A stretch of 34,679 nucleotides of DNA. Source: a bacterium. Its GTDB lineage: Bacteria > Patescibacteria > Gracilibacteria > 1-14-2-50-48-13. The first letter of the stretch is position 1, and every line of letters starts with the position of its first letter. The stretch covers positions 1-34,679 of the forward strand of contig JAUIFW010000001.1 of assembly GCA_030430105.1 (NCBI GenBank), read 5' to 3'. A program made the translations under genes and the position numbers. Under the pieces are notes generated by a model. It ran no database searches. It saw nothing but the letters and a program-made list of their open reading frames with translations, and was not told where the DNA came from. Shown here piece by piece: positions 4,868 through 27,777 of the stretch.

Positions 4868-4942
<75 letters not shown>

Positions 4943-18676: not shown

Positions 18677-19231
18677 ATGACTTCTCTAACCTTTGTCACT
18701 GGCAACCCCAATAAGCTTGAGGATGCAGCCCTTGTCCTCAAGGATTTTCACATACACGGAGTAGACTTTGATGTCCCAGAGATCCAGTCTATGGACCCTA
18801 AAGAGATCATTAAAGCAAAGCTTGCGTATGCATACCCGAAGCTAGAGGAACCCTGTTTTGTCATGGATGCGTCTCTCACTATGGAGTGCTTGGGAGGCTT
18901 CCCCGGTCCCTTTATCAAGTTTTGGTATGAACAGTCAGTGGGAGCGGAAAAGACATGTGAGATAGCCAATCACTTTGATCAGCATGACTGTAGGTTTGTA
19001 AATACCCTTGGTTACTTCGATGGAAAAGAGCTGCATTATTTTGTAGAGGAGCTCCCAGGAAGCATACCTACCGAGCCTCGTGGAGAAAACGGTTATCACT
19101 GGGATGTCATCTTCATCCCTGAGGGAGAAACACGCACCTTTGCCCAGATGCAGCCTGAAGAAAAGATGCAGTATGCACCTCAAAAACAGCTTCTCACAAG
19201 GCTCCGCACGTTCTTACTCTCCCAGAGCTAG
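18677..19231 (+). CDS. Non-canonical purine NTP pyrophosphatase, RdgB/HAM1 family
   Basis: The 184-residue protein shows the ITPase pattern: T-G-N-P-N-K-L-E-D near the N-terminus, V-M-D-A-S-L-x-x-x-x-L-G-G-F-P-G-P-F-I-K in the middle, and P-R-G-E-N-G-Y-H-W-D-x-I-F-I-P-E-G-E followed by T-x-A-Q-M. It hydrolyses ITP, XTP and dITP to monophosphates, keeping deaminated purines out of DNA and RNA. The usual DSGL is DASL, and the SHR motif near the end is replaced (MQYAPQKQ). Such changes occur in archaeal and CPR relatives. The ATG at 18677 gives the normal N-terminus; the longer frame adds no family sequence. The end overlaps the convergent Nudix gene by 18 bp. Confidence 0.88.
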   Translation: MTSLTFVTGNPNKLEDAALVLKDFHIHGVDFDVPEIQSMDPKEIIKAKLAYAYPKLEEPCFVMDASLTMECLGGFPGPFIKFWYEQSVGAEKTCEIANHFDQHDCRFVNTLGYFDGKELHYFVEELPGSIPTEPRGENGYHWDVIFIPEGETRTFAQMQPEEKMQYAPQKQLLTRLRTFLLSQS

Positions 19232-25023: not shown

Positions 25024-25438
25024 TTAGTTTTTTCCGTCCTCGAGGATATAGGTTTCAAAAAACTTACTTGTTTCAGGCCACAGCTTCATAGAGCGAATCT
25101 CATCAGTGGTGTAAAACCCACAAGCCCCTAGTTCATCCAAATTGGGATCCATGTGTTTGCTCATAAGCTCGCACTCTATAAAGTGCGTTATCTGGTCCCT
25201 CAATGTCTGAGCCTAGCGTTGCAAGCACTCTTACAGGGGTCACTTCTACACAAAGTTCCTCCATCAACTCGCGTACTACAGCATTTTCCTTGGACTCACC
25301 TTCTTCAACATGACCACCTGGAGGATAGAAGAGCTCACCATGTGACGCAATATACTTCTTTGAGGTCACCAGCAAATATGCATCTTTGCCTCCTTTTGCT
25401 TTTTTAATGATTGCTACTGAAACCTCTTTCATTCTCAT
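25024..25438 (-). pseudogene. Nudix hydrolase gene with a +1 frameshift
   Basis: The frame from ATG 25438 encodes a normal Nudix N-terminus with the box GGHVEEGESKENAVVRELM followed by EELCV, then stops at 25133 after 101 codons. The missing C-terminus is present in the next frame: from about 25178 it reads ELMSKHMDPNLDELGACGFY and continues to TAA at 25024-25026, the kind of segment (x-F-Y-T-x-D-E-I) that closes Nudix domains. One extra base around 25165-25180 accounts for the break. It may be a true pseudogene, a sequencing error or, less likely, programmed shifting; no slippery heptamer is apparent. It follows the Imm33-like gene by 34 bp. Confidence 0.75.
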
Positions 25439-25472
25439 CTAATAATAATGTTTCAACACCTACACCTCAACA

Positions 25473-25841
25473 CTACTCAACTAAAAGCATTGGATCATCC
25501 CAAATATCTTCATATCCGTCGTGATCAATCTGAAACCTGGTTCCTGGAGGTAAACCTAGATATTTGAGCACTTGGGGACATGATTCTATCAGGTGCTTCA
25601 CACATAGTGGTTCAAAGAAGTCAGCGTCCTCCTGAGGGATAGGATCTTCACCTGCAAATATATACCAGCCTGTGGTGTCACCTTCTATATTGTGCCTGAT
25701 GCCATTAATGGGAGCGACACCTTCGAATACATTCTTTGATATGCCAATTTTCATATCATATGCGGAAGGTACAAATTTCTTTCCTACTCTCTTGCAAAGC
25801 TCCTTTTGTGCTTTGATTATTTGCTCATGTTTATCTTCCAT
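25473..25841 (-). CDS. Imm33/DUF2185-like protein
   Basis: ATG 25841 gives a 122-residue protein; the longer frame runs into repeat DNA and is not used. The C-terminal two thirds read G-I-R-H-N-I-E-G-D-T-T-G-W-Y-I-F-A-G-E, D-F-F-E-P-L-C-V-x-H-L, and Y-L-G-L-P-P-G-T-R-F-Q-I-D-x-D-G-Y-E-D-I-W, which I recognise as the Imm33 (immunity protein) pattern. Such domains are named from polymorphic-toxin loci, but stand-alone copies are common and no toxin gene is visible here, so an immunity role is unproven. A TATAGA-type -10 lies upstream, with no Shine-Dalgarno. Confidence 0.72.
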   Translation of the reverse strand: MEDKHEQIIKAQKELCKRVGKKFVPSAYDMKIGISKNVFEGVAPINGIRHNIEGDTTGWYIFAGEDPIPQEDADFFEPLCVKHLIESCPQVLKYLGLPPGTRFQIDHDGYEDIWDDPMLLVE

Positions 25842-25952
25842 ATACAAGAAGGATTTAAGAACTCTATAGTAGCATAGTCCAACTTGATTTATTTTACACG
25901 GGTAAAAAACCAGGGTGACTCTGGGAGGCTTGATTGTCTTGCTAGATTTTGA

Positions 25953-26216
25953 GTGGCTCGGGGAGAGGGATTCGGTCACCTCACGCACGTCGCTCGGTCG
26001 TCTGCGACTCTGTCGCTCCTAGCTTGCTGTGACCCCCGCCGCTAAAAGCGTGCCATCTGGCACCCTTTTGCCTTCCTTCGCCTAGGGCTCTCTCAGGCCG
26101 CTCCATTCGAATCCCTCTCCCCTGCGCCACCGCCAACTCACCGCCACATCAAAATCTGAGAAATAATTTTTCCTCATTCTTTATTCTAGTTCTAACCGCG
26201 TTTGACGCGGTGGCTC
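25953..26216 (-). repeat. tRNA-Gln-derived direct repeat, copy A
   Basis: This 264-bp unit matches copy B (27447-27709) with about 11 differences by eye (roughly 96% identity). It fills most of the 399-bp gap between the Imm33-like and double-Nudix genes. Its left end, GGCTCGGGGAGAGGGATTCG, is the 3' end of tRNA-Gln; an inverted copy of the same sequence lies at 26108-26131, so 25953-26131 is flanked by 23-24-bp inverted repeats. Between them are GC-rich hairpins. An AT-rich part (26132-26195) and an ACCGCG-TTTGA-CGCGGT hairpin complete the unit. Just beyond, 26217-26245 looks like a decayed T-arm (GGTTCGAA on the minus strand). Confidence 0.88.
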
Positions 26217-26240
26217 ACCAAGGTGGAGGAAATTCGAACC

Positions 26241-27374
26241 CTACACTCGGTTTGCGACAAGTTCCCACTTGCCTCCCATAGCTTCTAATTCAGCTATAAA
26301 CTTATCTTCTGGTAAAAGTTTTATCTCACTCAACTCAAGATCTGCTCTCCTTGGAAATTTAGCTAGAACTTCTTCTGCCGATAGCTCAACGAATGCTCTG
26401 CATAGCACTCCAACTCCACCATGTTCTGACATGGTCATTTGTCTTACTTTTATTTCGCCTAAGCACTTCCTTGAGATTCCGACTTCCTCCTCTATCTCCT
26501 CTAGAAGATGTTCTTTAAAAGCAGACTTTTCATGCCTTTCTTCGAATACACCTCCCACCAAGGTTTTCTTCCCATTTGGACGAATACCTAGTATGTGAAA
26601 CCCATCACTCGTCACTATATCTACCATAGAAGCAACGCCTTTTGACATGTACTCATCAGGAAGCTCTAAAAATCCTAGTATATGTTTTAGTGAGATCCTC
26701 TCTCGATATTCCATAATGTAAATCTTGAGGATTATTTTCCCCTCTTCTTCTGCAATACTATTTAGGCACACTACTCTTCCATTGTGAAGCTGCTCACCAT
26801 TAGCTGCTGCACTTTCTCTCAGGCTTTTCCATACACTTGGGATCTGCTCCTCAATATCCCTATTAATCTTTCTTTGAGATGCCTCTTTTACAAGAAGGAC
26901 ATCTTCTATCTGAATGTCTCCTTCCCATAACACTTTAGATACTCTAACCCTTTTATCAGCATGTACTCTCTTAAGTTTGTTTTGCAGTATACTAGTAACC
27001 ACCTTCTTTATTTCAGATGGAACAAGGTTAATATTTGAAAGCTCTTCCAAGGAAATCCACATTAGTTCATAAGCATTTTCCTCAGAATTACGCTCACGTT
27101 CCTCTCCACCTAACTCTGGCACCCCAGTAAAGTCATTTACTAGAAAGATATGATTTACTTTTCCATCACTGTGATTTTTCAGCTCAAGGACCTTCCTACC
27201 TAAAGTTACCTCTAATGATGTTTCCTCCAAGCATTCCCGAATTGCTGTCTCCTCTATAGATTCTCCCTCCTCCCATGTTCCCCCAGGCAGAACAAAATAC
27301 TCTTCTCCTTTCTTTATTCGATGGATTAGAAGTACGCTTCTGTCCTTCACTATAATCGCCGAAGCTCTTGCCAT
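26241..27374 (-). CDS. Double Nudix-domain protein
   Basis: The 377-residue product from ATG 27374 has an N-terminal Nudix domain with an intact box (LPGGTWEEGESIEETAIREC then LEETSL, residues about 30-55). A linker domain (about 130-240) follows, then a second Nudix-like domain (about 255-377) whose box VGGVFEERHEKSAFKEHLLE followed by EIEEEVGI lacks the Arg and is one residue out of register, so it may be inactive or regulatory. Substrates are unknown. The gene lies precisely between two direct repeats and reads in the same direction as tRNA-Gln, which suggests it arrived as a cassette. No Shine-Dalgarno is visible; TATATT lies 12 nt before the ATG. Confidence 0.85.
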   Translation of the reverse strand: MARASAIIVKDRSVLLIHRIKKGEEYFVLPGGTWEEGESIEETAIRECLEETSLEVTLGRKVLELKNHSDGKVNHIFLVNDFTGVPELGGEERERNSEENAYELMWISLEELSNINLVPSEIKKVVTSILQNKLKRVHADKRVRVSKVLWEGDIQIEDVLLVKEASQRKINRDIEEQIPSVWKSLRESAAANGEQLHNGRVVCLNSIAEEEGKIILKIYIMEYRERISLKHILGFLELPDEYMSKGVASMVDIVTSDGFHILGIRPNGKKTLVGGVFEERHEKSAFKEHLLEEIEEEVGISRKCLGEIKVRQMTMSEHGGVGVLCRAFVELSAEEVLAKFPRRADLELSEIKLLPEDKFIAELEAMGGKWELVANRV

Positions 27375-27419
27375 AGTATTGTCAAAAATATACAGCAAAC
27401 ATACCTACTCTAGGAGTTT

Positions 27420-27436
27420 GTGTCCATGCATGGACA
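27420..27436. repeat. Short perfect palindrome beside repeat B
   Basis: TGTCCATGCATGGACA is a perfect palindrome about 10 bp outside the left end of repeat B. It has no equivalent beside copy A. Confidence 0.6.
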
Positions 27437-27446
27437 TGAAAGCTGG

Positions 27447-27709
27447 GTGGCTCGGGGAGAGGGATTCGGTCACCTCACGCACGTCGCTCGGTCGTCTGCG
27501 ACTCGGTCGCTCCTGGCTGCGGCGACCCCCGCCGCTAAAAGCGTGCCATCTGGCACCCTTTTGCCTTCCTTCGCCTAGGGCTCTCTCAGGCCGCTCTATT
27601 CGAATCCCTCTCCCCTGCGCCACCGCCAACTCAGCGCCACATCGAAATCTGAGAAATGATTTCTCTTCATTCTTTATTCTAGTTCTAACCGCGTTTGACG
27701 CGGTGGCTC
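27447..27709 (-). repeat. tRNA-Gln-derived direct repeat, copy B (abuts the tRNA)
   Basis: This 263-bp copy starts with GTGGCTCGGGGAGAGGGATTCG and runs up to the true 3' end of tRNA-Gln at 27704, filling the 329-bp gap before the tRNA. The inverted arm is at 27601-27624. On the minus strand the tRNA would be followed by an ACCGCG/CGCGGT hairpin, an AT-rich stretch, then a 178-nt region closed by a 23-bp stem with internal hairpins such as GTGCC-AGAT-GGCAC and GCGAC-CGA-GTCGC. It could be transcribed together with the tRNA. Confidence 0.88.
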
Positions 27710-27777
27710 GGGGAGAGGGATTCGAACCCCCATAGACAGATTCAGAGTCTGTAGTCCTACCATTAGACGATCCCCGA
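27704..27777 (-). tRNA. tRNA-Gln (CTG anticodon), CCA encoded
   Basis: The 74-nt minus-strand cloverleaf has acceptor stem TCGGGGA/TCCCCGA, D stem GTCT/GGAC, and anticodon stem ACAGA/TCTGT with loop CTCTGAA, giving anticodon CTG. The T arm is GGGGG-TTCGAAT-CCCTC. The discriminator is G, and CCA is encoded at 27704-27706. Its 3' end is copied in both flanking repeats. Confidence 0.96.

Follow-up and report, generated by a model that had tools for sequence, protein, structure and literature searches.

Short folded elements with target-matched inverted arms behind tRNA genes of Patescibacteria look like an undescribed kind of tRNA-targeting mobile element

Integration into transfer RNA (tRNA) genes is a well-known habit of mobile DNA. 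In genomic islands that reside in tRNA or transfer-messenger RNA (tmRNA) genes, sequence of the element restores the gene, and a displaced fragment marks the far end, as set out in the Islander paper (PMC4383910). We investigated a stretch of 34,679 nucleotides (nt) from a member of the Gracilibacteria within the Patescibacteria (GenBank assembly GCA_030430105.1, contig JAUIFW010000001.1, positions 1 to 34,679; hereafter the window, meaning this whole stretch), in which two related short elements, A and B, lie behind a tRNA-Gln gene. Compared with such islands, these elements and their relatives share the tRNA or tmRNA target, the gene restored by element sequence and the displaced fragment at the far end; a direct repeat of the 3' part of the tRNA at both ends, together with a restored tRNA, was found in the window and in relatives. 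The elements described here differ from the islands, however, in measuring only about 200-250 bp, in having no integrase gene, in carrying an inverted copy of the target beside a conserved folded core, and in being present many times over in a genome, every copy with a different tRNA. In 15 elements measured from inverted to direct copy (134-182 nt), no integrase gene was found, and the longest open stretch was 60 amino acids (aa).

Integron gene cassettes are mobilized through attC, a folded recombination site described in two papers (PMC2727003, PMC3053210). Our elements resemble attC cassettes in several ways: the recombination site would be folded, its arms paired, units occur in tandem, a possible cargo gene (NUDIX) lies between sites, and an imperfect palindrome folding as a single strand was likewise found here. 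The arms of attC bear the boxes GTTRRRY and RYYYAAC. Neither box stands at the arms in any of the 15 elements, whose arms consist of sequence from the host tRNA and vary along with it, and no integron integrase was found in G020, a related genome that carries window-type elements. Repetitive extragenic palindromic (REP) sequences and REPINs, moved by RAYT (Y1) transposases, and miniature inverted-repeat transposable elements (MITEs) are short, non-coding, hairpin-forming and multicopy, with the enzyme supplied in trans; the elements studied here would match them in all these respects, but sit at tRNA/tmRNA 3' ends with target-matched arms, and the Y1_Tnp domain, present in 6 of the 8 genomes searched, was not found in G020 or in a second genome, G659. 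The CTX phage exploits host Xer recombination, a folded single strand serving as the recombination site and dif as the target; host Xer could act on a folded strand here too, although the targets here are tRNA genes. In IS110 bridge RNA and in the omega RNA of IscB/TnpB, a target-complementary stretch adjoins a folded scaffold, as it does in our elements, whose core types nevertheless seem mutually unrelated and to which no such protein was tied, in searches not aimed at these proteins. Finally, eukaryotic tRNA-derived short interspersed nuclear elements (SINEs) contain tRNA-like sequence within the repeat, as do the elements here, which the first-pass annotation of the window had called tRNA-Gln-derived and SINE-like or integration-associated. 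Neither of the first two labels is supported: the core of the window element has no tRNA match in an Rfam search, the target site is fixed, RVT_1 was not found in G020, and relatives occupy many tRNA isotypes as well as tmRNA, mostly with copies of their own host gene.

Each known kind tested (islands, integron cassettes, SINEs or other retroelements, and REP/RAYT elements) thus fails in a defining feature. To our knowledge, a target-matched inverted strand belongs to no described class of element, and a search of the literature for such elements found no description. Rfam returned only tRNA for the window, and in a permissive search of 14 loci only tRNA and tmRNA reached the gathering score.

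We observed a recurrent kind of element, defined by inverted and direct copies matched to the target, covarying cores, a strong association with the 3' ends of tRNA/tmRNA genes and an occupancy that varies from relative to relative. A typical element comprises, in order, the tRNA 3' half from the T-loop, a trailer that often forms a hairpin, an inverted T-arm copy that often includes the acceptor strand, the core, and a downstream copy of the 3' half that is often decayed; the folded core is common to copies at different tRNAs. On this basis, the elements behind tRNAs look like an undescribed kind of tRNA-targeting mobile element. In the window (Table 1), the non-coding cores are about 130 nt long, and element B lies about 1.5 kb beyond element A, with a NUDIX gene between them. 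The first-pass annotation had described two direct repeats of about 264 bp with about 11 differences, and this was accurate (25953-26216, 264 nt, versus 27447-27709, 263 nt, with 10 substitutions and 1 gap); the differences argue against an assembly duplication. Equally confirmed were its direct copies of the tRNA-Gln 3' end, which are exact over 21 nt, and its inverted copies carrying the T-loop, which are exact over 17 nt from T-loop to acceptor (27599-27615 and 26106-26122). The former of these inverted copies is the complement of tRNA positions 54-70, with an imperfect match continuing to 27623, and the rest of the window contains no further stretch sharing at least 14 nt with tRNA-Gln. 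The layout first given to the repeat unit needs one correction: the unit is best read along the minus strand, following the tRNA on its 3' side, and copy B has at its left end (about 26210-26240) a resemblance to a decayed tRNA 3' half instead of a clean end. This putative remnant would, judging from this one locus, fit an old insertion end, and comparison with relatives suggests that 27704-27723 (tRNA-Gln positions 57-76) is the replacement 3' half brought by element A.

The seryl-tRNA synthetase (SerS) of the window was closest to a 'Candidatus Gracilibacteria' record, at 60%. Blastn searches of 288 genomes of that class with the window element matched a single genome, G020, twice, behind tRNA-Ile and tRNA-Asp, each match accompanied by its own tRNA 3' end in inverted and direct form. 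A sequence model applied to 353 genomes likewise gave strong matches in G020 only, with one weak match in each of two others at loci without a tRNA, and the exact core pattern had no match in genome_contigs. G020 is syntenic with the window across SerS (67% identity), an ATP-binding cassette (ABC) protein, guanylate kinase (gmk) and tRNA-Gln. With nearly the whole genome examined, a full element was present at 13 of its 39 tRNA genes, namely Glu-ctc, Leu-tag, Ile-gat, Gln-ctg, Ser-tga, Arg-gcg, Arg-tct, Glu-ttc, Leu-gag, Val-gac, Ser-gga, Asp-gtc and Ser-cga (loci L080, L086, L089, L092, L096, L105, L109, L115, L130, L132, L133, L136 and L137), and Ala-tgc, Tyr-gta, Leu-taa and Leu-cag retain what appear by eye to be remnants. 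The inverted copies begin about 54-67 nt past the tRNA and mostly extend to about position 70; across tRNA positions 54-65 they match at 12 of 12 positions in nine elements, at 11 in two and at 10 in two. Genome-wide, there are nine inverted copies of at least 14 nt; every one has, at a distance of no more than about 80 nt, a tRNA with a 3' end that it matches, and a few also suit a second tRNA with a similar end. Exact 12-nt matches to a gene's own inverted T-arm/acceptor within 200 nt downstream occur at 11 of the 39 tRNAs, compared to none of 39 upstream and 1 of 1456 foreign tRNA pairs without a shared 12-mer. Inverted copies are also the better preserved, with mismatches at 6 of 117 positions versus 17 of 104 in the direct copies. 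In all 13 elements, one or more reading frames stay open nearly from end to end, which may be a by-product of high G+C. A fourteenth full element (L134:11034-11171) lies at a contig end, its tRNA probably being off the contig.

The first-pass annotation had proposed that the 178 nt at 27446-27623 could fold as one RNA closed by a long stem. Folded as RNA of the tRNA strand, this region does close with such a stem and reaches -94.7 kcal/mol, against -66.1 for shuffles (standard deviation 4.5; z -6.4), and copy B folded as DNA gives z -5.5 versus shuffles. We aligned 12 elements, ten from G020 and the two from the window, in a structure model (R2) with four helices, namely the tRNA stem, one hairpin and two helices toward the 3' end, omitting both Leu elements and the Arg-gcg element, whose hairpin would not align. 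In this alignment, 94.7% of cells are paired versus 79.4% in shuffles and at most 44.4% in slid versions, 14 of the 25 pairs changed on both sides, and double-change cells number 46 versus 14.3 in shuffles. R2 matches 14 full copies in G020, 13 beside tRNAs and one at the contig end (ten are training sequences, four are not), as well as its two training sequences in the window, element A (27460-27615, 80.4 bits) and element B (25966-26122, 71.2 bits). A lack of copies in relatives and of covariation would have refuted the first reading of the repeat; with 14 full copies in G020 and clear covariation, this check did not overturn it. Outside the tRNA stem, wobble pairs comprise 11 G-T and 1 A-C, as expected for folding of the tRNA strand.

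The layout extends to other Patescibacteria. A search pattern of T-arm, 70-100 nt and inverted T-arm matched 41 of 332 genomes of the phylum, many by chance, and 2 of 40 outside it; 7 of 29 scored loci adjoined a tRNA or tmRNA gene and had an inverted copy scoring at least 11/12, and one locus (L177) lies at the 3' end of tmRNA. In the nearly whole genome G587, which has 39 tRNA/tmRNA genes, exact 12-nt copies of a gene's own sequence were found inverted at 7 and direct at 8 of the 39, and own inverted matches of 10 nt at 11; the controls for the 12-nt inverted match gave 0 of 39 upstream and 0 of 1472 foreign pairs without a shared 12-mer. By eye, at least three core types, apparently unrelated to one another, can be told apart among the G587 elements, all with one common layout. 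Their inverted copy is 12 nt long in most types, compared with mostly 16-17 nt in G020, and in some elements a hairpin interrupts it, by eye, precisely where acceptor gives way to T-stem. Units of differing core type also stand in tandem at single G587 tRNAs (Arg-gcg, Pro-tgg, Lys-ttt; L205, L206 and neighbours), by eye mostly with matched inverted copies.

For one of these core types, Z, we built a core-only model (R3) from seven cores, excluding the tRNA arms save an invariant GAA. Within the order of G587, R3 matched 215 of 397 genomes, no more than nine candidates being scored per listed genome; it misses the G020 and window elements. Of the 30 loci inspected, 27 (24 of 27 without the three training members) follow a tRNA or tmRNA of the same strand at a distance of 24-206 nt on its 3' side. 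At 16 of the 30, the inverted copy matches the upstream sequence at 11/12 or better, and at 10 the direct copy does so at 8/9 or better. The hosts of type Z span Ile, Gly, Asp, Arg, Tyr, Ser, Leu, Lys, Ala, Val, Cys, Met, Phe, Glu, Pro and tmRNA. The stem adjoining the inverted copy covaries (pair 6-90 is CG in 19, GC in 13 and AT in 3 of 35), and the second helix (GGTC...GACC) is near-invariant and receives no support from shuffling. Four type-Z copies (L285, L287, L299, L300) seem to have inverted/direct copies matching the tRNA 3' terminus or trailer (CCACAAA...), and two of these cores, L287 and L300, have no tRNA nearby.

The two 3' halves at an occupied gene are informative about the direction of insertion. 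In seven elements (Tyr, Ala-ggc and Gln-ttg of G587; L176; L280, L282, L291), the downstream copy has an encoded CCA, by eye, and the working gene has none, which implies that the downstream copy is probably the original and that the working 3' half arrived with the element, as in tRNA-integrated islands. The inverted copy tracks the working tRNA and not the displaced copy: of 27 positions where these two differ, it agrees with the working tRNA at 25 and with the displaced copy at 2. Fifteen of the 25 agreements lie at positions 57-59, where the displaced copy may begin later, while at positions 60-65 the inverted copy sides with the working tRNA 10 to 0 (9 to 0 minus a locus listed twice), two of these agreements arising from one-base gaps. 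The tRNA-His genes of G587 and G712 (L254, L255) are a case in point, having a changed acceptor stem (GCGACC/GGTCGC) relative to relatives; the inverted copy has the sequence that suits the new stem, whereas GGGCACC is retained in the displaced copy of G587.

A complement that stays matched to the working tRNA, beside a decaying displaced copy, could also mark a guide: the inverted copy would act as guide and the core as scaffold in an RNA by which a trans-acting nuclease or transposase is brought to the tRNA gene. The near-fixed length of the complement, the covarying, RNA-like scaffold that it adjoins, and wobble pairs favouring RNA of the tRNA strand are all consistent with this alternative. 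Against it, one layout is common to three or more core types that look unrelated by eye, R3 misses the G020 and window elements, and it would be surprising if a single scaffold-binding enzyme served them all; the target is also still present in the occupied gene. We consider a guide RNA unlikely.

Occupancy was compared at orthologous tRNAs in the G587 family, most species of which have the tRNA-Leu(gag)/tRNA-His region in common. At tRNA-His, 4 of 9 species are occupied, and the other 5 have no inverted copy of at least 9 nt; by eye, one core type is present in G587 and G712, the same with a second unit in G713, and another in G710. At tRNA-Leu(gag), 3 of 12 species are occupied, 1 has a remnant and 8 have nothing. 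The orthologous tRNA-Gln genes of the window and G020 harbor, by eye, different core subfamilies. Differing occupancy and core types at orthologous tRNAs fit insertion and loss at tRNA genes, and the presence/absence between relatives, along with the restored 3' half and the displaced direct copy, supports the earlier suggestion of an integration-associated element, specifically at tRNA 3' ends. They also bear on whether the elements could be vertically inherited, cis-acting or antisense RNAs that regulate or process the tRNA. Such a host function would agree with inverted copies conserved against the working tRNA and with the covarying structure, but only about one third of tRNAs carry an element in the two genomes examined, orthologous tRNAs of related species have none or another core type, and G020 contains apparent core-deleted remnants (Ala-tgc, Tyr-gta, Leu-taa), which makes it very unlikely in our estimation.

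We favor, as probable though well short of certain, a short, non-coding, non-autonomous integrative element with entry at the T-loop, replacement of the 3' half, a recombinase acting in trans on the foldback, and an inverted copy renewed from the host tRNA. The element would enter the gene at about T-loop position 56/57, its own 3' half replacing that of the gene and the original being displaced downstream. Folding of the sense strand would bring the inverted copy into pairing with the tRNA 3' half, a trans-acting recombinase would recognize this foldback, and the inverted copy would be renewed from the host tRNA, at or after insertion, via hairpin-templated copying. We infer both the moving enzyme and this rewriting of the inverted strand, the latter being the most surprising and least tested step. 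In the window, judging by sequence, such a unit may have carried or captured the NUDIX gene between the two units. More tentatively, and less likely to be right in full, these would be a new mobile element class with a targeting strand written by the target: at each tRNA or tmRNA gene where the element settles, the inverted copy would be made, and later maintained, from that gene, such that one core can colonize almost any tRNA of a genome, several apparently unrelated cores having converged on, or been captured by, a tRNA-templated mechanism across Patescibacteria.

The T-loop is a classical site for tyrosine recombinases, and because an Xer-like protein is the sole such enzyme found in G020, a tyrosine recombinase would be the first guess. 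This G020 protein (PF00589) has XerD as its best model, under the cut-off of that model, and scores far below integrase_gron; seven other element-bearing genomes encode one or two tyrosine recombinases each. The recombinase at L183 (G659:C5:76046-76528) reaches 235.9 bits with integrase_gron against a cut-off of 265 and exceeds the NF040815 cut-off, a score between Xer and integron integrases that makes it a possible candidate.

Retro-insertion by snap-back would instead yield the inverted copy and a long target duplication in a single event, if a nick at the T-loop primed copying of the core RNA and the opposite 3' end folded back to copy the tRNA strand until the nick. It would explain why the inverted copy stops, on its inner side, at the same point where the direct copy begins (at the T-loop, or at the 3' terminus in L285/L299), why several inverted strands continue the terminator-like hairpin through trailer and acceptor, and why trailer-including duplications exist (Glu-ttc and Leu-tag of G020; L179). 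Nonetheless, RVT_1 was found in only 3 of 8 genomes, G020 not among them, and by eye there are eight cases in which only one of the two 3' halves encodes CCA, a difference that a fresh duplication would have to acquire by later change; we regard this route as quite unlikely.

Several observations weigh against the trans-mobilized integrative element that we favor. Concerning the enzyme, tyrosine recombinases also match in 14 of 14 control genomes, so that the one in G020 is weak evidence, and no autonomous copy, circle or enzyme gene tied to the elements was found, in searches that did not include serine recombinases, IS110, Cas1 or guide nucleases. Six core patterns had no match in viral_contigs, and blastn of the element found nothing in plasmids and, in phages, no match other than those of 27 nt. 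The wobble bias to the tRNA strand suits RNA at least as well as single-stranded DNA. Concerning distribution, R2 finds the window core type in 1 of 353 class genomes (G020), with 8 candidates scored per listed genome, and 14 of the 30 R3 loci have an inverted copy below 11/12 and 3 no nearby tRNA, while some type-Z copies (L285, L299) match the tRNA 3' terminus and trailer and not the T-arm. Direct copies lie far from any tRNA at two places in G020 (C7:133375, 16 nt of tRNA-Asp; C2:40975, 14 nt of tRNA-Thr-cgt), about half of the G020 elements retain no more than the first few bases of the displaced direct copy, and L152 is reversed, with CCA on the left and none on the right. Concerning occupancy, no pair among the genomes compared is close enough for an exact empty site, G707 may carry a degenerate inverted copy at tRNA-His (by eye), and the 'empty' species G702, G706, G707 and G711 have type-Z core matches elsewhere in the genome.

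If the favored reading is true, the small, streamlined genomes of Patescibacteria host an abundant, unrecognized class of tRNA-targeting elements, and the gain of a strand complementary to each new target would be of direct relevance to programmable DNA insertion. Odd tRNA 3' ends, such as lost CCA and extra tRNA tails, may also be explained by the elements, which may in addition offer an entry place for accessory genes in these genomes.

Table 1. Features of the tRNA-Gln locus, in window coordinates
Feature	Position	Strand	Basis
tRNA-Gln (CTG), host gene	27704..27777	minus	ARAGORN, Rfam
Element A, spacer/trailer: hairpin CCGCGTCAAACGCGG, AT-rich after	27624..27703	minus	sequence; copy B has the same spacer
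Element A, inverted copy of tRNA-Gln T-arm and acceptor 3' strand	27599..27623	minus	
Element A, structured core	27469..27598	minus	R2 match, RNA fold
Element A, direct copy of tRNA-Gln positions 56-76, displaced 3' end	27448..27468	minus	
NUDIX-domain open reading frame (ORF), 385 aa, between elements A and B	26241..27398	minus	Pfam PF00293
tRNA 3'-half-like sequence (GGTTCGAAT...GAGCCACC), left end of copy B	26210..26240	minus	sequence
Element B, spacer	26123..26209	minus	
Element B, inverted copy of tRNA-Gln T-arm	26106..26122	minus	
Element B, structured core	25975..26105	minus	R2 match, DNA fold
Element B, direct copy of tRNA-Gln positions 56-76	25954..25974	minus	
Imm33-like domain ORF downstream of element B, accessory gene	25473..25853	minus	Pfam PF24719
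Second, short NUDIX ORF, accessory gene	25133..25438	minus	Pfam PF00293

The NUDIX, Imm33-like and second NUDIX ORFs behind tRNA-Gln (25133-27398) form a small accessory island absent from G020, where none of the three had a match by tblastn despite the synteny. Elsewhere in the window, the tRNA-Phe gene (4868-4942) has no adjoining inverted or direct copy of at least 12 nt, and a 12-nt match to its anticodon arm is present at 18739-18750.

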